Assembly: GCA_902516825.1 (NCBI GenBank)
Contig: CABXZZ010000009.1
Coordinates: forward strand, 1-35,910
Length of the DNA stretch: 35,910 nt
Direction of reading: 5' to 3'
From: an uncultured SAR116 cluster alpha proteobacterium
Lineage (GTDB): Bacteria; Pseudomonadota; Alphaproteobacteria; Puniceispirillales; Puniceispirillaceae
Part shown: positions 9,448 to 23,906 of the stretch, piece by piece
How positions within the stretch are numbered: the first letter of the stretch is position 1
How the letters are laid out: each line of letters begins with the position of its first letter
Notes under the pieces: model-generated
Databases searched by the model: none
The model's input: only the letters and a program-made list of their open reading frames with translations
What the model was told of the DNA's origin: nothing
Made by a program: the position numbers and the translations under genes

Positions 9448-10815
9448 TTATCTCCAGTGATTATTAACAGGGGAAATTCTTGCACCATGCTTATTCATTA
9501 ATTCAACAAAGCCTGGAAAGCTTGTATCAATTGTGGAAACGCCATCTACAATGATTCTATCAGTGCTCACGAAACCAAGGGTTAGAAAAGACATTGCAAC
9601 TCTATGGTCATGCTCTGAATAAATATTAAATCCACCTTTTATACAAGAATTGCCAGTCACGGTCTTAGTGCCGTATACCCGCATAGTGGTCTCAGTTTCA
9701 TCAACATTCACGCCTGCAAGGCGTAAACCTTTTGTCATAATTGCTATTCTATCTGCTTCTTTATGTCTTAACTCACCGATATTTGCCATCAACGTAGACC
9801 CTGTTGCCATTGCAGCCGCGATACACAAGATAGGGTATTCATCTATCATCGATGGTGCTCTATCAGCTGGTATGACAATTCCTTTCAATTGGCTTGAAGA
9901 AACCAGTATATCAGCAACCTGCTCGCCACCAACTTCGCGTTCATTTCTGATTTTTATCCTACCGCCCATTTCGCGAAGTGTGGTAATCAATCCAATACGC
10001 TCTGGGCTCATACCAATCATAGGTAAAAGAAGCTGGCTATTTTCAGTGATTAATCCGGCAACAATTAAAAAGGCAGCAGATGAGGGGTCACGCGGCACGA
10101 TAATATCATTTGCCTGCAGAGTAACGCCCCCTCTCACGCTAGCCCTATAACTGCCATCCAAATTGGTTTGAGTATCAACTTCAACTCCAAAATGTTTCAG
10201 CATACGCTCTGTATGATCACGCGATTTTGCTGGCTCAATTATAGATGTTACGCCTCTTGAATTTAACCCTGCAATTAAGATAGCGGATTTGATTTGCGCA
10301 GATGCTACGGGAGAAATGTAACTTATTGGAAGGGGACTCGATCGCCCAGTAATATTAACTGGTAGCAATCCGTCACCATTGTCGCTCACCTGAATCCCCA
10401 TTTGGCTGAGCGGTTCTGTAATACGTCGCATTGGTCTACTGGAAAGGGATTCATCTCCAATGAAAGTTGCGTTTATTTTTTGGCCAGCAACCAGACCCAT
10501 CAAAAGCCTCACGCCAGTTCCAGCATTTCCAAGGTCCAGTGGTTTTAGAGGCTCTTGCAGGCCATGCATGCCTACACCTATTACCTCTACTATATCATCT
10601 TCTAGTATAGAAATGCGGACACCTAGAGCGCAAATAGCGTTTAAAGTAGACTGAACATCTGAACTTTTTAGCATCCCCGATATCCTCGTTGTCCCCTCTG
10701 CAATCGAACTTAATATAAGCGACCTGTGTGAGATTGATTTATCCCCTGCAACAATACCGGTTCCTTGTAATCCAGAAATAGCTTCAGATGAAAGAGAGTC
10801 TGTATTATTATTCAT
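9448..10815 (-). CDS. aroA: 3-phosphoshikimate 1-carboxyvinyltransferase (EPSP synthase)
   Basis: GDKSISHRSLILSSIAEG, LGNAGTGVRLLMGLVAG, ASAQIKSAILIAGLN, LRHKEADRIAIMTKGLR, DHRVAMSF. Upstream of cmk-rpsA-ihfB as in many alphaproteobacteria. Confidence 0.96.
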   Translation of the reverse strand: MNNNTDSLSSEAISGLQGTGIVAGDKSISHRSLILSSIAEGTTRISGMLKSSDVQSTLNAICALGVRISILEDDIVEVIGVGMHGLQEPLKPLDLGNAGTGVRLLMGLVAGQKINATFIGDESLSSRPMRRITEPLSQMGIQVSDNGDGLLPVNITGRSSPLPISYISPVASAQIKSAILIAGLNSRGVTSIIEPAKSRDHTERMLKHFGVEVDTQTNLDGSYRASVRGGVTLQANDIIVPRDPSSAAFLIVAGLITENSQLLLPMIGMSPERIGLITTLREMGGRIKIRNEREVGGEQVADILVSSSQLKGIVIPADRAPSMIDEYPILCIAAAMATGSTLMANIGELRHKEADRIAIMTKGLRLAGVNVDETETTMRVYGTKTVTGNSCIKGGFNIYSEHDHRVAMSFLTLGFVSTDRIIVDGVSTIDTSFPGFVELMNKHGARISPVNNHWR

Positions 10816-11090
10816 TTCAAGCCTCAGATTGGAATGGACGTGACTATTCTACATGCGGTGCTTTCTCTCACAACAAATAAAAATTATCTAGGTTTAAATT
10901 TAGAAATAAAATTTTGCTTACCAAATAAACAAACGCTCAATCTTTCCAAAATTGGGGAGAAATAATAATTACGTTACAATTTAAACGTATTTTGAAAAAT
11001 ATTTAATGTTGACTAAAATTTACTTTGACATATGGATGTATTATTGTGTTATTCGCGGAGATGGCAGAAAAAAAACATCAAGGATTAGAC

Positions 11091-11537
11091 ATGAATGAGA
11101 TTGAACTGGGAGTTAAGAGACGTTGTATTAGCTGTGGCACAAAATTTTATGATTTTTTGAAATTCCCCATAACCTGCCCTAATTGCGGAGCAGAATTTGA
11201 TCCGGAACAGCTTCTCAAAAGTAGGAAAGGTAGAGTAACTGCCAAATCAACTATTGTTGAAGCTGCAAAAAAAGACACCGCCGAGAATGAGTTTCAAACA
11301 GAGCCACTACTTGCTGAAGCCGAAATTGAAACAGATATTGACGATGTAGAAGACGATGGATTGCCTGCAGACGACGAAAGCTATATTGCAGTAAGTTCAG
11401 ATGAAGATGAGACAAATGCACCAGCTACATTCGAGGATGATGAAGAGTTTATTGATGAATTAGCTGAAGACGTTGAAGAAGTTGATATGGATGCAGACGA
11501 AGCCTCGGGAACTCTTTCCGAGAAAGACGAAGAATAG
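11091..11537 (+). CDS. TIGR02300/FYDLN-acid family protein (zinc-ribbon-like N-terminus, acidic tail)
   Basis: GVKRRCISCGTKFYDFLKFPITCPNCGAEFDPE followed by a strongly Asp/Glu-rich tail. ATG at 11091 is the likely start. Confidence 0.88.
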   Translation: MNEIELGVKRRCISCGTKFYDFLKFPITCPNCGAEFDPEQLLKSRKGRVTAKSTIVEAAKKDTAENEFQTEPLLAEAEIETDIDDVEDDGLPADDESYIAVSSDEDETNAPATFEDDEEFIDELAEDVEEVDMDADEASGTLSEKDEE

Positions 11538-11547
11538 AAAGTTCTGA

Positions 11548-11576
11548 TTGACATTAGCTAATAGTTTACCTAGTAC
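11548..11576 (+). promoter_or_regulatory. Sigma70-like promoter for tRNA-Ala
   Basis: TTGACA (11548-11553), 17-nt spacer, TAGTAC (11571-11576), 24 nt before the tRNA 5' end. Confidence 0.6.
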
Positions 11577-11600
11577 CGATAATTATTAAAAATCTAATTC

Positions 11601-11676
<76 letters not shown>

Positions 11677-11910
11677 ACAATCGTTACTTTTCTTGGATGC
11701 CAGATAGCTTGATCCGCAACATAATAAGGGTTAGATCTCACGAATAATATCATAATTTAAAAATGGCACTTAACAATCCTAATGGCAACGATTATGTATT
11801 CAATATCTCCAAGTGTTTTTTTTAAATGATTATTTTTAAATTAAATCTATTTTATAGATGCTAGTCACTTATTGATATAGCTAGTGAACAGGATTGAAAG
11901 GAACTTTAAG

Positions 11911-12282
11911 ATGAAGACCTCAAGCTCTGAACTTCAAGCAGCTCACAAGATTATACCAAAAATCGACGTTGAGGTAGGTATTGAAAAACACAAAACTGGG
12001 AAGTCTGTATTCATCGATGTCCGTGATGGATTGGAAATAAACCAAACTGGTACAATAAAAGGCGCACTTCGCATTCCGAGGGGTTTTATAGAATTTGCAG
12101 CAGACCCTGAAACAGCATTTTATAACCAGGAGCTTCAGAAGGATGCTGATATCGTGCTTGTTTGCGGTGCCGGCGGAATGGCGGCTTTAACGGGTAAGAC
12201 ATTGGTTGAAATGGGGTTTCGGTCAGTTTCAAATGTCGGCGGATTTTCTAGCTGGAAAGAGGCTGGAGGCCCCATCGAATAA
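11911..12282 (+). CDS. Rhodanese-like domain protein
   Basis: SVFIDVRDGLEINQTGTIKGALRIPRG, DADIVLVCGAGGMAALTGKTLVEMGFRSVSNVGGFSSWKEAGGP, with catalytic-loop Cys in VCGAGGMAA. Confidence 0.88.
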   Translation: MKTSSSELQAAHKIIPKIDVEVGIEKHKTGKSVFIDVRDGLEINQTGTIKGALRIPRGFIEFAADPETAFYNQELQKDADIVLVCGAGGMAALTGKTLVEMGFRSVSNVGGFSSWKEAGGPIE

Positions 12283-12982
12283 AGCAGAATTGCGCGCAGT
12301 CGCGTAATCATTGGGCTTGTTATAACCGGAACATTTTCGTTTTTGGTGATTCTAATAGCTGGTGATATCTTGACGATGGAACCGGCCTTCCGCATTGGTG
12401 TAGATGGCCTGAGATGATGAAGCGGCGCCTAATTCAGGATAGGAAATATTATGTCGGACAGGGCTCTTGTACTCGAAGGACCGGGCCAGATGATGACTAC
12501 GTGAACGGATATCTTTTAAATAGGCGTTCAACTTTGCTATCTTGCATTCTTGCTTATTCACCTATTGACCATATGTTATAGATGCTTGTGCAATTAGCTT
12601 TAAATACCCCATTAACCTATCTGCAGCGAGAATTTGCGACCAGCTTCTTAGAAGCAGCTTCTGTAATCTTAACCATCAGAGCTGGCGCTTGGCACGATAG
12701 TGTCATCTCGTTGGTCATCAGTGTTTACCCGCCAATATTAGGAATGCGAGCAGATAACCGTGATTGGATTGGGTTTTATGATTAGATTGGCGGCGCTGAC
12801 GAGTCTCGCGCGCTTTGCGGGCTTCTTAAAGAGGCTTCAGCCATAAGCAAATTTCATTATTTTGGTACAAGTTCGATTTTAATCCCCTCTAATAAGGAAT
12901 CTATTCACTTGTAAGCAGAAAATCACCATAGATCTGGTGAAGAGATTGCCAAGTATATTTTGCGTTTAAAAAATTGATAGAA

Positions 12983-13771
12983 CTAAAAAGTAAAGCGTTT
13001 ACCCAAATACACTTCACGTACCCCTTGATGTTCAACAACTTGTTCTGGGCTGCCTTCCATTAATATAGCACCATCATGCAAGATATACGCCCTATCTACG
13101 ATATCTAATGTTTCCCTGACATTATGGTCAGTAATCAACACACCTAATCCACTCTCCTTCAAATGCGTTATGAGGTCTCTTACCTCTCCAATAGCAATAG
13201 GGTCAATGCCGGCTAATGGTTCGTCAAGAAGTAGAAATGTTGGTCTAGCGGCTAGCGCACGAGCTATTTCGAGTCTGCGTCTCTCGCCGCCAGAAAGATT
13301 GATAGCAGCTGTATTGCGTAAATGAGCAATGCTGAATTCAGCCATCAACTCCTCTAGCATACCATCACGAACATCTTTATCATTTTCAACAATTTCTAAA
13401 ACGGATCGAATATTTTGAGCAACGCTAAGGCCTCTAAAAACGCTTGATTCTTGTGGAAGGTATCCGAGCCCTAATCTTGCTCGATAAAACATAGGAGATT
13501 TGGTGACTTCAAGACCGTCCAGAAATACGCGGCCTTCGTCTGCTGCTAGTAACCCACATAGCATGTAAAAAGTAGTTGTTTTTCCAGCCCCGTTAGGGCC
13601 AAGAAGCCCAATCGCCTCACCTCGCTGAACACCAAAACTAACATTGCGGACAACGCGCCGTTTGTTGATATATTTCCCAAGACCATCAGCAACTAATCCA
13701 ACATTGCTATCAATCAATCTCAGGTGACTAGACCAACTATGTGCGTTTTCGTATGTTTCTTTATTTGTCAT
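12983..13771 (-). CDS. lptB: LPS export ABC transporter ATP-binding protein
   Basis: Walker A GLLGPNGAGKTTTFYM, signature INLSGGERRRLEIARALA, Walker B FLLLDEPLAGIDP; next to lptA and lptC. Confidence 0.95.
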   Translation of the reverse strand: MTNKETYENAHSWSSHLRLIDSNVGLVADGLGKYINKRRVVRNVSFGVQRGEAIGLLGPNGAGKTTTFYMLCGLLAADEGRVFLDGLEVTKSPMFYRARLGLGYLPQESSVFRGLSVAQNIRSVLEIVENDKDVRDGMLEELMAEFSIAHLRNTAAINLSGGERRRLEIARALAARPTFLLLDEPLAGIDPIAIGEVRDLITHLKESGLGVLITDHNVRETLDIVDRAYILHDGAILMEGSPEQVVEHQGVREVYLGKRFTF

Positions 13772-13841
13772 AAATTACGGCGCTTGTATAAGAATTTAAA
13801 CGAATAACCATTATCATAGGAAAAAACCTTGGAATATGCAA

Positions 13842-14630
13842 TCAATTTGATGCACCCAAAATCAATTTTCCAGTCACACGCTTGTTCTCATTCCCTGCTA
13901 GTATCTTACTATATCCTGTTTCCATGTTAATAATGGCTTTATCGCCGCGAAGCTGATTTTTGTCACCCAAAATCACAACCGAATCCGATAGTGTAACATT
14001 GCCACTTTCAACTTGGTAGAATGCGGAGCTTGAAAAAGCAACTCTGCCTGCTTCTTCGGTCAATTTTACATCCCCCTCAGCATTTATGGTATTTATGTCG
14101 CCATCGTCCGTCAGTTCAATTTTTAGCATCTGTGCCTCGATTTTTCTGGCTTCGGATATTGAAATCATAGCATCTTTTTGTAATAGTAATAAGCCGTTTA
14201 ATTCATCAAATTGAATTTGATGAGATGACTTGGCAATCAATTCTTCGGATTCGAAATAATTCTCATTTCCAGTAAGTGTAAAGGTCTGGGTGTTCATTTC
14301 ATAAATGAGCCTGTCTGAAAACCCAGAACCCGACACATCATTAAACTTCACCGAGCCTGTAGCTTCTATTCTAGTAATATTACGGTTTTCCTCGCTTTCA
14401 TAAAAAGCGATGATTTTGTCTGCATTAATGGTGCGCCTACCTTGGGTGGCAGTTGCATCTCCCATGGCGTTATATGATTTGTTCTCTTGGTTCCATTCAA
14501 GAAAACCAGATGCCTCAATTTCCAGGTTTTCTGCCAATAACGGCTTAAACAGAAATATAGATAACGCAAGTCCCAGAATATATATTTTATATTTCAATAT
14601 CTGTCTTGATGTTACATTCATTGCACGCAC
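13842..14630 (-). CDS. lptA: LPS transport periplasmic protein LptA/OstA-like
   Basis: Signal-like N-terminus; repeated OstA beta-repeat motifs (NADKIIAFYE, IEATGSVKF, INAEGDVKLTEEAG, LRGDKAIINMETGYSKI). Confidence 0.85.
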   Translation of the reverse strand: MRAMNVTSRQILKYKIYILGLALSIFLFKPLLAENLEIEASGFLEWNQENKSYNAMGDATATQGRRTINADKIIAFYESEENRNITRIEATGSVKFNDVSGSGFSDRLIYEMNTQTFTLTGNENYFESEELIAKSSHQIQFDELNGLLLLQKDAMISISEARKIEAQMLKIELTDDGDINTINAEGDVKLTEEAGRVAFSSSAFYQVESGNVTLSDSVVILGDKNQLRGDKAIINMETGYSKILAGNENKRVTGKLILGASN

Positions 14631-14659
14631 CCTTGTTCTTGCTTTCTCATATATTTTGG

Positions 14660-15346
14660 TTACTGGTTTGCCATTATAATAAGATTAGCATGACCGCCAA
14701 AATAGATAGTCCCGCTTTCTTGATTAATACTCATGTCTTCGCCGGTAATCTTCATATTTTCAGTTATAACAACGACCGGTTGATTACTGTGATAAATTTT
14801 GTTTACCAAATCTACAGATAATTCAGAGGTGTTGATATTTACCTTTGGCTGTGTTTGTTTTATCTCAACAGTTCCTTGAAATAGAGTTGTTTCCCTGGAC
14901 TGATCTAAAATAGCTTCGAATGAGTTTATTTTTATTATACTCCCATTTTTAGTCCAAATAGTACCATCCGGTTTGGAAAGATGAATAAGCCCTTGCTTTG
15001 GCATATTATCAATCGCCTGCTCGGCAGTTATTTCAAAATTTTCACCATCATTTGTTCTGCCTGAAAATCGAGCGCCAGTCATCTTAGTGTTACCTGCTTG
15101 AGATTGTGAAACCTGTTCAATGCTCACTTCAATATTTCCGGTCTGGTCTGCGAAATATAGCCACCAGATAACACCTATGCTAAAAAAAATAGAGGGAATT
15201 AACAAAAGATATGAGCGCTTAATTCCTTGCTTTTTAGACGTGCCTTCGATTTTTATTTTTGAGAGGATTGCTAAATTTTTTGCAAAGGCTCTGGTGTTTT
15301 CAGAAGTGCTGGTACTGCCATCAGAGCTAATGTTTTTTTTTATCAT
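14660..15346 (-). CDS. lptC: LPS export protein LptC
   Basis: Single N-terminal TM (SYLLLIPSIFFSIGVIWWLYF) then LptC-like beta-strands (GARFSGRTNDGENFEITAEQAIDNMPKQGLIHL); immediately upstream of lptA. Confidence 0.82.
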   Translation of the reverse strand: MIKKNISSDGSTSTSENTRAFAKNLAILSKIKIEGTSKKQGIKRSYLLLIPSIFFSIGVIWWLYFADQTGNIEVSIEQVSQSQAGNTKMTGARFSGRTNDGENFEITAEQAIDNMPKQGLIHLSKPDGTIWTKNGSIIKINSFEAILDQSRETTLFQGTVEIKQTQPKVNINTSELSVDLVNKIYHSNQPVVVITENMKITGEDMSINQESGTIYFGGHANLIIMANQ

Positions 15347-15433
15347 TTGTATTTTTTCTACCTAATTCTGGCACATTAAACTGATATTAAATATCGCTTT
15401 TATAGCTTGTTTCAAAAAGCGTCATCTACAACT

Positions 15434-16045
15434 CTAATGATGAAAAATATCTAAATCTTCAAATCCGTTTAGATCAAGAGCTATTCGATGCGTTAAAAAA
15501 TCGAAGCAATGATGGGCTAAATCTAACCTTCCCTCTTTAGTTAGTTGTTCATTTAATTTCGATTTTATCCTGTGCAAATACAAAACGTCACTTGCAGCAT
15601 ATTTTTTTTGAGCTTCGCTCAGTATCTCAGCTCCCCAGTCTGATGATTGTTGTTGTTTTGACAATTCAACAGATAGCAATTCTGAACATAAATCTTTCAA
15701 TCCGTGCCTCTCTGTATAGGTTCTAGATAGTTTTGATGCAATTTTTGTGCAATAAATAGGACCTGATACCATGCAGACATCTCGGGCTAAGACGGCTAAA
15801 TCAAATCTAGCGAAATGAAATAGCTTTTCAATTGTTTTGTCTTGCAGTAATGCTTCTAGGTTGGGTCTTTTTTGTCTTTCAGCACCGATTTGAACAAGAT
15901 GGGCATCTCCATTACCATCAGATAATTGAACTAGACAAAGCCTGTCTCTGGTTAATTTTAACCCTTTTGTTTCTGTATCAATCGCAACTGATTTTCCAAA
16001 GTGAATATAGCTGGGTAGGTCATGTTGATGAAGAAATACACTCAT
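15434..16045 (-). CDS. rnd: Ribonuclease D-like 3'-5' exonuclease (short form without HRDC)
   Basis: DEDD exonuclease motifs: VAIDTETKGLKL, FHFARFDLAVLARDV, YAASDVLYLHRI. Confidence 0.88.
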   Translation of the reverse strand: MSVFLHQHDLPSYIHFGKSVAIDTETKGLKLTRDRLCLVQLSDGNGDAHLVQIGAERQKRPNLEALLQDKTIEKLFHFARFDLAVLARDVCMVSGPIYCTKIASKLSRTYTERHGLKDLCSELLSVELSKQQQSSDWGAEILSEAQKKYAASDVLYLHRIKSKLNEQLTKEGRLDLAHHCFDFLTHRIALDLNGFEDLDIFHH

Positions 16046-17310
16046 TTTAATCTTTGGCCCTCCTTTATATCTAGTCCATATCTCAATGCGATCCGAGATA
16101 TATCAGGGCGATTTCGCTCATTTGGCTGTTTTGTTTTTGCGCCAATATAAATGAAGCCTGCTATTTTGTCAGTATCAGGATTTCCGCCAAGCGTAGTTAG
16201 CATTTTTTCATTGTAAGAATACCAATGCGTAACCCACTGCGCTCCATATCCGAGCGCAAGCGCGGCTGTAAGTAAATTCTGACAAACTGCTCCAGCAGAT
16301 AAATACATTTCCCATTTAGGTATCTTAGAGTGAATTACAGGTTTTGAAATTACGCATAAAACAGCACTAGCTTTTGTAAACCGTCTTTCTTCAAACTCTA
16401 GCATTACTTCAATTCTTTCTTGTATTTTTTCAGCCATCTCATTTCTACCCTGAGACATTAAGCTTTCGTAAGTTTTCTGAAGTGTCGCCGTCATTTTTTC
16501 TTGTTCAACAATTGTTTTTGTTGCAGCAACTTTTTCATTTATATAAAGCAACTTTGATTTTAATTTTTCGATTAATTCGACAGGAGCTTGTTGCAATATT
16601 TTGAGCAACTCGTCATTTGGCAATGACTTCGCGTCAACGCGTTCTATTTCTCCGTGACCAGGAATATTAATAATATTTTTAAAGTCTGGCAAATCTGTAA
16701 CCGTTGTAGAGCCAGCTGATTGGTCTGGCGCTCTGTTGAATGCTCTGTAAATTGTTTCTGTAAGGCCTCTTAAGAAAAAGAGCCCACCCAAAGTCACAAT
16801 GAAAGACGAGATACCGCTTTTTACGATTAACCAACCTTGAAACCAACCAAATGCCAGAGTAAAGCAAAGTGTAATTAAAAATGCACCTAGAGGAGAAACA
16901 TCCTCTATTCTTATCAGCGTTATTGTCTCTACATGAATACCTCCCTCAAAAGATATGTACGGAATAACAATAGCAAAACCCCAGCGTAATATGATAGCCA
17001 TCACACCAGCAGCAAAGCCCATCATAGAGCCAATGGAGAGATCAAATTCTCCTGAAATAATTAGTAATCCGGCTCCAATAGCTATGATACCTAGTTGAGC
17101 CACAACTCTGAAATTATTTCGGATGCCAAGAGCATTAAAGCCATCACCAGCAAAAGGATTGAAAGAAAACTCGCCTGCTGGAATTGAGAAATATCCAAGC
17201 ATTCCAAAAAGAAGCAACATGACCCCAATAGGTCCTATTTCTGGTCGCTTTATAAGTGAGGCAAACCAGCCAGTTTGTCCTAATCTATCTGATTCCGTCC
17301 GAGTATTCAT
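16042..17310 (-). CDS. Chimeric ORF: N-terminal part of a sugar (ribose/xylose-type) ABC permease joined to the C-terminal half of a nitroreductase
   Basis: Residues ~1-195 match BPD_transp_2-type sugar permeases (AQLGIIAIGAGLLIISGEFDLSIGSMMGFAAGVMA; GISSFIVTLGGLFFLRGLTE). Residues ~309-420 match the C-terminal half of nitroreductases (RRFTKASAVLCVISKP...IPKWEMYLSAGAVCQNLLTAALALGYGAQWVTHWYSYNEKM...IAGFIYIGAKTKQPNERNRPD). The joined region is hydrophilic and helical. The ORF overlaps the rnd start by 4 nt (ATGA). Confidence 0.8.
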   Translation of the reverse strand: MNTRTESDRLGQTGWFASLIKRPEIGPIGVMLLLFGMLGYFSIPAGEFSFNPFAGDGFNALGIRNNFRVVAQLGIIAIGAGLLIISGEFDLSIGSMMGFAAGVMAIILRWGFAIVIPYISFEGGIHVETITLIRIEDVSPLGAFLITLCFTLAFGWFQGWLIVKSGISSFIVTLGGLFFLRGLTETIYRAFNRAPDQSAGSTTVTDLPDFKNIINIPGHGEIERVDAKSLPNDELLKILQQAPVELIEKLKSKLLYINEKVAATKTIVEQEKMTATLQKTYESLMSQGRNEMAEKIQERIEVMLEFEERRFTKASAVLCVISKPVIHSKIPKWEMYLSAGAVCQNLLTAALALGYGAQWVTHWYSYNEKMLTTLGGNPDTDKIAGFIYIGAKTKQPNERNRPDISRIALRYGLDIKEGQRLK

Positions 17311-17362
17311 ATCATAGCCAATTCAATTGTATCAAAAACCAACAAAGCTTGTTTTCATTTAA

Positions 17363-17389
17363 AAATGGGAGGCACTTGGCCTCCCATTT
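17363..17389 (-). terminator. Strong intercistronic hairpin (attenuator or terminator) after the sugar-binding protein
   Basis: Perfect 11-bp stem AAATGGGAGGC/GCCTCCCATTT with a 5-nt loop, followed on the minus strand by a short T run; 16 nt past the 17406 stop. Confidence 0.7.
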
Positions 17390-17405
17390 ATTTTACAATC
17401 GAGTT

Positions 17406-18314
17406 TTATCTATCAATGCCCGCTAAAGCTGAAACAGCTGATGCGTTTGACTTATCAACAAATCCAGGCCCAGAAGGGATATTATCGCCAGGCAATAGGC
17501 CTGCTGAATTATTGTATAAGTGTAGAACAACGATTGGCATATAACCCTGTAATCTTTGCTGTTGATCAATAGTGAAAGCAACCTTACCAGCATTGATTAA
17601 GTCCATTAACTCTGGGCTTAAGTCAAAGCAGGAATGGTGCACGCTCATTCCAAGATCATCAAGTGCTTTAGCCGTACCGATGCAAGAAGTTGGCGAAACA
17701 GATAAAACGGCATTTACATCTGGGTTTGCTTGAAGCGCTGCAGTCGCTCGTGTCACGATTGTAGCAGCGTCGTGCGTTGTATCAACAGAGGACACAATGT
17801 TTACATTTTCGCCATAACCATTGCATCTGTCAGAGAGTGCGGTATTATATTGCTCTGGTGTCATACATAACGCTTTAGTTGCTCCTTCAGCGGCAGCTCT
17901 TTCACCTGCCTTTTGTCCAGCCAATGTTTCTGGCTGACCAATGTGCATTAATGCACCAACTTCTTTATAAGCCTCAAGGCCGGAGTTTATTGTGATAACT
18001 GGCACACCTGAATCAACAGCAGCGCGAATAGCATTACCAAGTGAGTCTGGGTCTGGTAAAGATACTACCATTCCGTCAGGCTGAGTAGCTGCAGCAGCCT
18101 GAATCGAACTCGCCATATCTGCCAAATCACCTGACGGATTGAAAATATATTCAAAATCCACACCCATTTGTGCTGCTGCATCTGCACCAGCTTTTTCAAC
18201 TACGGGCCAAAATGGATCTTTTCCTTCACCGTGTGTTACCATTACATAGCGTTCGGCATTTGCAGTTCCTGTCATAAGCATAATTGCCGACACTGCCAAA
18301 ACAAATTTCTTCAT
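17406..18314 (-). CDS. Sugar ABC transporter periplasmic substrate-binding protein (ribose/xylose-type, Peripla_BP_4)
   Basis: Signal peptide MKKFVLAVSAIMLMTGTANA; THGEGKDPFWPVVEKAGADAAAQMGV, DGMVVSLPDPDSLGNAIRAAVDSGVPVITINSG, TIDQQQRLQGYMPIVVL. Confidence 0.9.
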   Translation of the reverse strand: MKKFVLAVSAIMLMTGTANAERYVMVTHGEGKDPFWPVVEKAGADAAAQMGVDFEYIFNPSGDLADMASSIQAAAATQPDGMVVSLPDPDSLGNAIRAAVDSGVPVITINSGLEAYKEVGALMHIGQPETLAGQKAGERAAAEGATKALCMTPEQYNTALSDRCNGYGENVNIVSSVDTTHDAATIVTRATAALQANPDVNAVLSVSPTSCIGTAKALDDLGMSVHHSCFDLSPELMDLINAGKVAFTIDQQQRLQGYMPIVVLHLYNNSAGLLPGDNIPSGPGFVDKSNASAVSALAGIDR

Positions 18315-18653
18315 AATATTTCTCCCTTAAGAATTTATTTTATTCTCCTGATGAAAAATCAAAATAACAAAACAAAAAATATAGTTTTTTTGACTTTTAG
18401 TTTACAAGTTCCATTATTTTAAGCACTGCGCGATGTAAAGAAAATTCATAAAAGTGGGTAACTTTTTTTTTAAATTCGAAACTTTACCAATAAAAAGCCT
18501 AATTATTTTTGGATTTTTACCCAAAAAATAGAAAAATCAGTGAAAATTTTTTTGTAATTTTTATGATTCGATTTAATCTATTATCATCTTGTTATTTGAA
18601 CCCCTTTCACTTTTTTTAAATTAACCTGTGCTTTAAAATAGCCAGCCAGAAAG

Positions 18654-19649
18654 ATGCAAGCAATGAAACAAAGAATTCTTGGAAAAACTCATTATTCTGT
18701 TTCCGAAATTGGACTTGGATGTTGGCAGTTCGGAGGTGATTTTGGTCCAATTGAGGAGCCTAAAAAAACAGAAATATTAGCAACCGCACAATTACATAAC
18801 GTAAATTTTTTCGATACCGCAGATGTTTATGGAAATGGAAATTCAGAAACAATTATTGGCAATTTCTCTTCCGATAACCAAAAGTTCAAAAATAGGGTAG
18901 TCGCTACGAAAGTTGGGAGAAACTCAGATTTATACCCTAATAATTATCACTATGAGACTATAGAAAAATGCATAAGAGAAAGCGCTAATCGATTGCAGAT
19001 AAAATCAATTGATTTGGCTCAATTACATTGTGTGCCATCATCCATTCTTAAGAATGGAGTCATTTTTAAAATTATGGACGATCTAGTAAAACGTGGGCTT
19101 ATTAAAAGTTGGGGTGCCTCCGTAGAGACATTAGAGGAAGCACATATATGCCTAAAACAACCTGGGTGTAGTTCTTTGCAGATTATATTTAATTTGTTTC
19201 GCCAAGACCCTGTTTGGTCTCTATTTGAGGCAGCACAAGCTAACAATGTTGGCATAATTGTTAGATTGCCCCTTGTAAGTGGTATTCTAACTGGCAAATT
19301 CAACGCAACTCACCAATTTCACGAAACCGACCATCGGAATTTCAATAGAGATGGTTCTTTTTTCTCTGTTGGGGAAACTTTCTCTGGTATTGAACAAAAA
19401 AAGGCTATTGAATTAACGTCTCTTCTTAGAGGTTTTGTGCCAGAAGGATTGACTTTATCTGATTTTGCTTTGCGTTGGATTTTAGACCATGAAGCTGTTT
19501 CAACAGTTATTACAGGATGCTCTGACAAAACTCAAATCGCTCAAAATGTTAGAGCAAGCACGTTACCCTCACTACCTCTGATTACCCACACAAAATTACG
19601 GGAAATTTATCTCTCTGACATAAAACCTTATATTAGATGTCCAGTTTAA
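18654..19649 (+). CDS. Aldo/keto reductase
   Basis: SEIGLGCWQFGG, NFFDTADVYGNGNSETIIG, VVATKVGR, catalytic-region QLHCVP, SDFALRWILDHEAVSTVITGCSDKTQIAQN. Start may be 9 nt later. Confidence 0.9.
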   Translation: MQAMKQRILGKTHYSVSEIGLGCWQFGGDFGPIEEPKKTEILATAQLHNVNFFDTADVYGNGNSETIIGNFSSDNQKFKNRVVATKVGRNSDLYPNNYHYETIEKCIRESANRLQIKSIDLAQLHCVPSSILKNGVIFKIMDDLVKRGLIKSWGASVETLEEAHICLKQPGCSSLQIIFNLFRQDPVWSLFEAAQANNVGIIVRLPLVSGILTGKFNATHQFHETDHRNFNRDGSFFSVGETFSGIEQKKAIELTSLLRGFVPEGLTLSDFALRWILDHEAVSTVITGCSDKTQIAQNVRASTLPSLPLITHTKLREIYLSDIKPYIRCPV

Positions 19650-19662
19650 CATTAAAGTTGAA

Positions 19663-20991
19663 TTACATATATCGATTTACAATCATCTCATATAATTCTT
19701 GTTGTCCAGAATATGGTGTTGGTCTGATATCCTCTTCTAGAACCAAATCATGCAAAGATTGAAGCGAATGGGAACCATCTACAATATCTTTTCCCATCTT
19801 AGCTTCCCAACCCGCATATCTCAAATCAATTTTCGATATGAGAGCTCCCTCTTTAAGCATCGTTGCAGCGGTTTTCAATCCACGGGCGCAAACATCCATT
19901 GCACCTATATGCGCTATCAGCAAATCGTCTGGATTAATGGACTGTCTTCGAAGTTTTGCATCAAAATTTGTCCCACCAGTTTTAAAACCACCTTGCTTTA
20001 ATATCTCATAATAGGCGAGGGCGACTTCTGGAACGTTATTTGGAAATTGGTCCGTATCCCAGCCAGACTGGTAATCGTTTCTATTCATATCTATTGAGCC
20101 AAATATGCCTAGAGTAGATGCTAGCGCTATTTCATGCTCAAAAGAATGCCCTGCTAAAATTGCGTGTCCTTGTTCAATATTTACTTTCACCTCTCTCTCA
20201 AGACCATATCTGCATAAAAATCCATAGACTGTGGCAACATCAAAATCATATTGATGCTTCGTTGGCTCCTGCGGTTTTGGCTCAATCAATATAGTCCCCT
20301 TAAAGCCAATTTTATGCTTATACTCGACAACCATATTCATAAATCTTCCCAGATGGTCTAATTCTTTAGATAAGTTTGTATTTAAGAGCGTTTCATACCC
20401 TTCACGACCACCCCATAACACGTAATTTTCACCGCCTAGTTTAAAAGTGGAATCCATCACAGATTTTACAGTAGCTGCCGCATAAGCAAATACCTCTGGG
20501 TCAGGATTAGTAGCGGCACCAGACATAAATCTTTTATTTGAAAATAAATTAGAGGTACCCCATAAAAGACGTGTGTCTTGTTTGTTCATTTTCTCAGCAA
20601 AATAATCTGTTATCAGTTCTAAATTATAAAGGCTTTGTTTGAAACTATCTCCTTCTGGACGCACATCTGCGTCATGAAAGCAAAAGTATGGTACACCAAG
20701 CAACTTGAACATTTCAAATGCCACATCTGCTTTTGCTTTAGCATTGACGATATCTTCGCCAAACCAGGGCCGCTCGAAGGTCATGCCGCCAAACGGGTCT
20801 GTACCGGGCCAAACAAAATTATGCCAGTAGCAAGCAGCAAACCTGAGGTGTTCGGCAAGCGGTTTTCCAAAAACAAATTCTTCAGCATTGTAATATTTAT
20901 ACGAGAGCGGATTATCACTATCTTTCCCCTCGTATTTTATTGGTGTTTTGATAGAAAAAAAGTCTTGTTTGTTTTTAGGCGTTAACATCAA
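19663..20991 (-). CDS. xylA: Xylose isomerase
   Basis: [111 protein letters not shown]-type metal site [20 protein letters not shown]. Confidence 0.97.
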
Positions 20992-22438
20992 CTGCTCCCC
21001 TCGATAGCGAATGATAGATAGATTGCCATTTTAGGCGTCGGCTTTTATGAATTTCATTAGTGGTTTCTACTGGATTAAAAATACGCAGAATCTCTGGTTT
21101 ACTTAATATATCTTCTGGATCTCTTCCTGTTGCCAGCGCTGCTAAGCGAGCAGCGCCATTAGCACCCCCAAACTCTCCCTCTTTTGGTAAACTCACTGTG
21201 ACACCTGTACAGTCTGCGATTTGCTGCAACCAATGAAAATTTTTAGCTCCACCACCAACCGCCAGCAGGGTTTTTGGCTTTTGATCTGATTTTGAAATTA
21301 CATCCAGACAATCCGCTAAAGCATAGGTAATTCCTTCAAAAACAGAATAGGCCATATCTGCACGGCCATGGCTTCTAGAGAGACCAAAAAATCCACCCCG
21401 TGCTTTTGAGTCGTTATGAGGCGTTCTCTCTCCTGAGAGATACGGATGAAATAAAAGTGTAGAATTTTCTGCATTAACATTAGCGGCCGAATTGGCTAAT
21501 GATACAATAGAAGTCCCTGTTATTTCAGATAACCAGTTTAGCGAATCCGTAGCTGAAAGTGTTACCCCCATCTGGTGCCATAATTTAGGAAGTGCATGAC
21601 AGAACGCATGCGCGCCACTTGCCACCTCTGGGTAAAATTTTTCCGTTACTTTGAAAACAACACCTGATGTACCTAACGAGACAAACGCATCCCCTGGCAC
21701 TACCACACCTAATCCACATGCAGCAGCAGCGTTATCACCTGCACCACCAACAACCACTTTTGAAGATAAACCCCATTTATTGGCAAGTGATTTACGAACA
21801 ACCCCGGCAGGGTCAGAACCTTCTTTTAACGATGGCATCTGAGAGATATCCAAGCCGCAATGGGAAATTAGTGTTTCACTATATTCACGTTTTTCTACAT
21901 CAAGCCATAATGTCCCACTTGCATCTGACATATCTGAGAATTTTTCTCCCGTTAACCAGAATCTTACATAGTCTTTAGGCAACAGAATTGTTTTTATTTG
22001 TTTGAAGATTTCTTTTTCCTGCTCTGCCATCCATACTGCTTTAGGCGCAGTAAACCCTGCCATCACAGCATTCCCAGCAATTTTGCGAAAATCAGGAAAT
22101 TGCACATCTAACTTTTTTGCTTGTTCATCGCATCTCGCATCATTCCATAATATGGCGGGCCTAAGCACTATATCTGCTTTATCCATTGCAACTAAACCGT
22201 GCATTTGGCCAGAAAGCCCTATTGCCGAAAGCTGCGTAAATTCAGAGCCTACTCTATTTTTAATAGCTGAAATAACTATTTTGGTTGCTTCTATCCAATC
22301 TTGAGGGTTTTGCTCTGAATAGCCTTCCTTTGGCCTTGATACTGATAATGTAGCATTATGACTTGCTATTGTTTTACCATTTTGATTTTGCAATAATCCT
22401 TTTATAGATGATGTTCCAATGTCGAGTCCAAGGTACAT
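20975..22438 (-). CDS. xylB: Xylulokinase
   Basis: [83 protein letters not shown]. Overlaps the xylA start by 17 nt. Confidence 0.96.
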
Positions 22439-22628
22439 TCTTTTTCCTTAATAAAAGTCGAAATATACATAAAACTGTGCATATTTATTCGCGAAAGGAT
22501 AGTTTTTTTATTCTTTTTTCGGGTTGTCTCTTAAAATGGTGAGAGGCCTGATAATGGAAAAAATTTTAACTTTTACTCCGATTTTACTGATAGTAACGAA
22601 ACCAACATACATATAGATTAGTTTTAAC

Positions 22629-23906
22629 ATGACCCTAATACAAAACCCTAATGCCCCACTCATTCTTCGTAATCTTTTCGACCGAGCAGTAGCTGCTGCT
22701 GACCCAATGGAAACGATCTTCGAGCATCTTCCCAAAAAACCATCAGGGAGAGTTGTTATCATCGGTGCTGGAAAAGCTAGTGCGCGAATGGCAGAAGCCG
22801 TAGAGCGTATTTGGGGTGAATGCTCTGGCATTGTGATCACACGCTACGGTTATAAAAGGCCCTGTAAGGGAATAGAAATAGTAGAAGCGGCCCACCCTGT
22901 TCCAGATGAGGCAGGCGTTGAGGCGACAAAAAAAATGTTAGAGTTAATGCATGGCTTGAGTGAGGATGATTTCGTTCTCTGCTTAATTTCAGGAGGAGCT
23001 TCTGCCTTATTATGTTCGCCGTCGAGCGAAATAACACTGGCTGAAAAGCAGCAAATAAATCATAGCCTTCTGGAAAGCGGAGCACCCATCGACCAAATCA
23101 ATATAGTTCGAAAGCATTTAAGTGCTGTTAAGGGTGGTCAATTAGCTGCGGCTGCTTACCCTGCAAGAATGCTAAGCTTGATTCTATCAGATGTGCCAGG
23201 AGACGATATCCAGTTTATTGGATCTGGGCCTACGGTAGGTGATACTTCTACGTGCCAGCAGGCGCTTCAAATCATATATGATTACAATATTTCTGTTTCT
23301 TCCAACTTGATTAAGCACCTAGAAACTAAATCAGGTGTATTAGTGCCTCAAGATATCCGGCTTAGCAAAATACAGAATGTGATTTTTGCGGCCCCTTCTC
23401 AATCCCTACAGGCTGCAACAAAAATGGCTAATAACAACTATGGCTTTAAAGTAATAAATCTTGGCGATGCTTTACAAGGAGAAGCAAGAGAGGTTGCGCG
23501 TCAACAGGCTGAACAAGCAATTCAAATCCAAAATCAATTATCACATACAGATAATCCTGTATTATTACTTTCTGGTGGCGAATTAACAGTAACTAAAAAC
23601 GGAAATGGTGTTGGTGGTCCAAATGCTGAGTTTTGTCTTGCTCTTGCTATTTTTTTAGATCAGCAAGCCGGCATTTTTGGGTTGGCTGGAGATACTGACG
23701 GAGTTGATGGGGCAGACGAAATCGCGGGGGCGTATGTCACTCCCGATACGTTAGATCATGCCATAAAGGCAAATATATCGCCTAAAGAATCATTATTTCA
23801 AAATGACGCTCATAGTTTTTTTGGAACAATACGCAATCAAATTATAACAGGGCCTACATTCACAAATGTAAATGATTTCAGAGCTATATTGATTTATCCC
23901 AGCTAA
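22629..23906 (+). CDS. Glycerate 2-kinase (DUF4147/MOFRL family)
   Basis: VVIIGAGKASARMAEAVE, LCLISGGASALLCSP, LSDVPGDDIQFIGSGPTVGD, LLLSGGELTVT...GGPNAEFCLALA, GLAGDTDGVDGADEIAGAYV (MOFRL). Confidence 0.93.
   Translation: MTLIQNPNAPLILRNLFDRAVAAADPMETIFEHLPKKPSGRVVIIGAGKASARMAEAVERIWGECSGIVITRYGYKRPCKGIEIVEAAHPVPDEAGVEATKKMLELMHGLSEDDFVLCLISGGASALLCSPSSEITLAEKQQINHSLLESGAPIDQINIVRKHLSAVKGGQLAAAAYPARMLSLILSDVPGDDIQFIGSGPTVGDTSTCQQALQIIYDYNISVSSNLIKHLETKSGVLVPQDIRLSKIQNVIFAAPSQSLQAATKMANNNYGFKVINLGDALQGEAREVARQQAEQAIQIQNQLSHTDNPVLLLSGGELTVTKNGNGVGGPNAEFCLALAIFLDQQAGIFGLAGDTDGVDGADEIAGAYVTPDTLDHAIKANISPKESLFQNDAHSFFGTIRNQIITGPTFTNVNDFRAILIYPS

Follow-up and report, generated by a model that had tools for sequence, protein, structure and literature searches.

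In the products of phi29 MDA, a chimeric junction occurs roughly every 22 kb. Most of these are nearby inversions, and 127 of 475 chimeras joined segments more than 10 kb apart, these mostly with few or no complementary bases (PMC1855051). In a benchmark of marine single-cell genomes, recovery averaged 60%, undefined bases were absent and misassemblies numbered 1.5 per 100 kb; such workflows retain contigs >2,000 bp (PMC6122165; the same cut in PMC10224968).

The window analysed here is a stretch of 35,910 nucleotides, free of N, which makes up the entire contig C9 of a 1.47-Mb, 92-contig, 61.96%-complete SAR116-clade genome. On its minus strand, from 17310 to 16042, one open frame of 422 codons combines pieces of two protein families. 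Residues 1-300 are the N-terminal part of a BPD_transp_2 sugar permease of about 530 aa, and residues 303-422 correspond to the last 120 residues of a YdjA-like nitroreductase of 200 aa. This fused ORF is almost certainly an artefact, and no new kind of protein. Very probably it is a chimeric join of two unlinked loci, most likely produced during MDA of a single marine SAR116-clade cell and kept by the assembler. The features of the locus are as follows.

12983..16045, minus strand: rnd-lptC-lptA-lptB, native downstream neighbours of the nitroreductase
16042..17310, minus strand: fused ORF, 422 codons (open frame and Pfam)
16042..16404, minus strand: nitroreductase part, C-terminal 120 codons (303-422) and stop, without the first ~80 codons
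16402..16411, minus strand: join, with about 10 bases of uncertainty, GAAG being common to both relatives' sequences (alignment of relatives)
16411..17310, minus strand: permease part, N-terminal 300 codons, including the first part of the native helical insert, without the 3' part
16411-16700: first part of the helical insert of the SAR116-clade sugar permease (intact homolog at L033:5974-7569)
17406..18314, minus strand: periplasmic sugar-binding protein (Peripla_BP_4), native upstream neighbour of the permease
18654..23906: carbohydrate block, with an aldo-keto reductase (plus), xylA-like gene (minus), FGGY sugar kinase, xylB-like (minus), and glycerate-kinase-like DUF4147/MOFRL gene (plus)

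Pfam matches the fused ORF to BPD_transp_2 at aa 67-210 (profile positions 6-125 of 269, E 3e-10) and to Nitroreductase at aa 285-390 (profile positions 61-166 of 167, E 9e-8). A preliminary description of this DNA had read a single 422-aa permease/nitroreductase ORF, set between rnd-lptC-lptA-lptB and a carbohydrate block, that had lost the C-terminal helices of the permease and the RRS-bearing N-terminus of the nitroreductase. The open frame, the two Pfam matches and the flanking genes agree with this reading, and both ends are absent by Pfam. The hydrophilic helical linker that it had placed at the junction did not hold up. This stretch (about aa 205-300) aligns with the first part of an insert native to the intact ~530-aa permeases, and its interpretation as a new linker is rejected, since they carry the same insert.

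Intact homologous permeases of the SAR116 clade are 526-550 aa long, and ordinary RbsC-type permeases are about 200 aa shorter. The homologs match BPD_transp_2 in two pieces, the latter half of the profile falling on residues 364-516, and an insert of about 150 residues, largely helical, lies between the two halves in 10 of the 10 homologs aligned. An AlphaFold model of an intact homolog has a mean pLDDT of 52 overall, its insert (about 220-330) being mostly helical at 67-81; phmmer retrieved no solved structure matching the insert at E 0.01. Residues 1-300 of the fused ORF are 61-69% identical to these BPD_transp_2 (PF02653) permeases, the first part of the insert included. In contrast to them, it ends without the C-terminal ~230 residues that carry the second profile half, so that the membrane domain is incomplete. 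The transporter set is incomplete as well: the binding protein gene lies upstream, and the ATPase gene, which follows the permease in nearly all relatives whose contig continues, is absent from the locus. One relative (L009, G034:C71) has a long permease open frame of only 429 aa, against ~530 in the others.

The other part matches the C-terminal 120 residues of YdjA-like nitroreductases (PF00881; PDB 3k6h, 3bm1), and 110 of these 120 residues are identical in the nitroreductase of the congener G007. The C-terminal half of the domain is thus present, whereas the first ~80 residues are missing, with profile positions 1-60 and the N-terminal RRS segment that binds the FMN phosphate (RRSV, residues 11-14, in the intact G007 enzyme). 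Against G007, dN/dS is 0.08 for the nitroreductase half, compared with 0.09 for rnd, 0.20 for lptC, 0.18 for lptA and 0.04 for lptB. Judged by these ratios, the half gene is under ordinary purifying selection and shows no decay. Such a low value indicates that it belonged to a functional enzyme until very recently, or still does so in the cell.

Alignment with ten intact permeases and seven intact nitroreductases places the end of permease likeness at I300 and the beginning of nitroreductase likeness at M303, so that the join falls at codons 301-302. At this point the window reads ATT GAA GTA ATG, the nearest permease relative ATT GAA GCT, and the G007 nitroreductase ACA GAA GCT ATG. The join was placed at 16402-16411 because the relatives' codons diverge from the window there. 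At the DNA level, the match between the left part of the window and the G007 locus is 82-85% and extends to about base 16410. The sequence common to both sources is about 4 nt (GAAG). Repeat-mediated misassembly is disfavoured by so short a shared sequence and by the lack of N. No G+C step is visible at the join, which is uninformative, as both halves fit the same clade.

No such fusion was found among the roughly 85 relatives searched, which keep the permease and nitroreductase genes apart. The searches covered 61 genomes of the genus, family and order, an overlapping family search of 61 genomes, and a scan of genome contigs that brought in SAR116-cluster and other uncultured marine Alphaproteobacteria. 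In the relatives' matches, the permease part stops at aa 300-303 and the nitroreductase part starts at 288-307, and none runs across the join. The same architecture in more than one genome, which would mark an established gene fusion, was therefore not seen.

Gene order in related genomes, which the preliminary description had proposed to compare for intact permease-ATPase and nitroreductase-rnd pairs, gave both. The nitroreductase is intact in seven congeners (G001, G002, G003, G005, G007, G008, G009), where it heads the rnd-lptCAB operon. Upstream of it, as far as contigs reach, come the gene of an Irr-type regulator in divergent orientation, katG and gap. In sister species, the block of glycerate kinase, xylB and sugar transporter is on a contig other than that of the nitroreductase. 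From the glycerate-kinase-like gene (22658) to the contig end, the window is 91% identical to G007 contig C32 along 13 kb, and its left part matches another G007 contig, C18. G007 has the glycerate kinase followed by xylB and a sugar ABC transporter, an order which implies that the surroundings of the window's right half are conserved as far as the break. The single 2.75 Mb contig of G015 has the permease at 288 kb and the nitroreductase at 2714 kb; in G010 they are at 67 and 844 kb of one contig.

The missing continuations were sought in the assembly. The 5' half of the nitroreductase, irr and katG have no match in the assembly, and the gap region has a short 68% match on C36. Neither does the 3' half of the permease have a match, only distant paralogs being present on C72. 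The G007 stretch lying 17-37 kb beyond the nitroreductase, with gltB, thrS, infC, rplT and pheS, is likewise without match. The family search also failed to find thrS in the assembly, the only signal coming from a weak paralog on C29, whose level is reached by a paralog in G007 too, and the positive controls, G007 and all 14 control genomes, were above cut-off. As a living cell has thrS, infC, rplT and pheS, the region must be unrecovered. With both continuations unrecovered, the join marks the ends of two recovered islands. In a synteny comparison with G007, three 20-kb stretches taken from other contigs were broken up by accessory islands and contig ends. About 10 kb of the largest contig (L095, G000:C1, about 10037-20000) is without DNA match in G007, and may be an accessory island or another join.

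This situation is much like that of phi29 MDA chimeras in single-cell genomes (PMC1855051), in which distant segments likewise meet abruptly, share a few bases at most and border on unrecovered regions. Here too the two loci are separate in relatives and share at most a short sequence. We infer that the genome is a single-amplified genome, because the profile of the assembly fits marine SAG assemblies: the shortest contig seen is 2002 bp, the sampled contigs fit a numbering by decreasing size, the window has no N, and completeness is 62%. At the benchmark rate of 1.5 per 100 kb, a contig of 36 kb would be expected to hold about half an error. The join would have formed in vitro, a displaced 3' end from the permease gene re-priming inside the nitroreductase gene, or the reverse, near GAAG. 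Strand and frame would have matched by luck, giving one open frame across the join, and in the cell itself both pairs, permease-ATPase and nitroreductase-rnd, would be intact. Some points count against an amplification chimera. Most MDA chimeras are nearby inversions, whereas the fused ORF, known here from the assembly alone, joins loci on separate sister-genome contigs; direct joins over a long distance make up the smaller share. That the frames match is mildly coincidental, as a random join would match strand and frame in about 1 case in 6.

Alternatively, a real and recent chromosomal inversion or translocation could have joined and broken both genes, leaving the fused ORF as a non-functional by-product. 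The continuous open frame without N would suit such an event, and sister genomes do differ in gene content at the sugar locus. However, no reciprocal junction or leftover halves were found elsewhere in the genome, the junction is in no relative, the nitroreductase half is without decay, and both break points lie just where unrecovered DNA begins. We consider this unlikely, and somewhat less likely again that a very recent event of this kind, in one SAR116-clade lineage, gave rise to an expressed membrane protein whose in-frame tail is half a nitroreductase. The preliminary description had named two possibilities, a deletion and an assembly join. An artificial join has good support from the occurrence in one assembly only, the two missing continuations, the separate sister contigs and the absence of decay. 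A simple deletion from the permease 3' end through the nitroreductase 5' end is very improbable: it would fit the absence from the assembly of both missing ends and of the sister-order flank, but in the sister gene order it would span the indispensable thrS, infC, rplT and pheS and would therefore be lethal. This argument rests on the lineage having kept the G007 order, which around the nitroreductase is shared by the congeners examined and from thrS to pheS was read in G007 only. In family members with better assemblies, 300-800 kb separate the two loci. A functional family of membrane-tethered nitroreductase-like fusion proteins is scarcely credible and is rejected, since despite the intact frame and the conserved sequence of both halves no second member was found, and the fused ORF lacks half of the permease helices as well as the N-terminal part of the nitroreductase that binds FMN. 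The membrane-tethered half-nitroreductase suggested earlier found no supporting evidence, and the structure prediction proposed for it, run on the fused ORF as a single-sequence fold, gave a mean pLDDT of 41.5, weak evidence either way.

If the join is an amplification chimera, assemblies without N and with zero estimated contamination may carry in-frame chimeric genes that resemble new domain architectures. A quick check would be to ask whether both true continuations, and the indispensable genes beyond them, are absent from the assembly.

The transporter gene beside the glycerate-kinase-like gene and xylB varies between genomes (window 16411-22438 versus L087 and L088). The window carries xylA and a permease of the long type there, G007 a different sugar ABC transporter, with a binding protein 47% identical and a permease of 353 aa, and G006 has no sugar ABC transporter at this place. 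On sequence comparison, the sugar locus looks like a site of swapped transporter cassettes.
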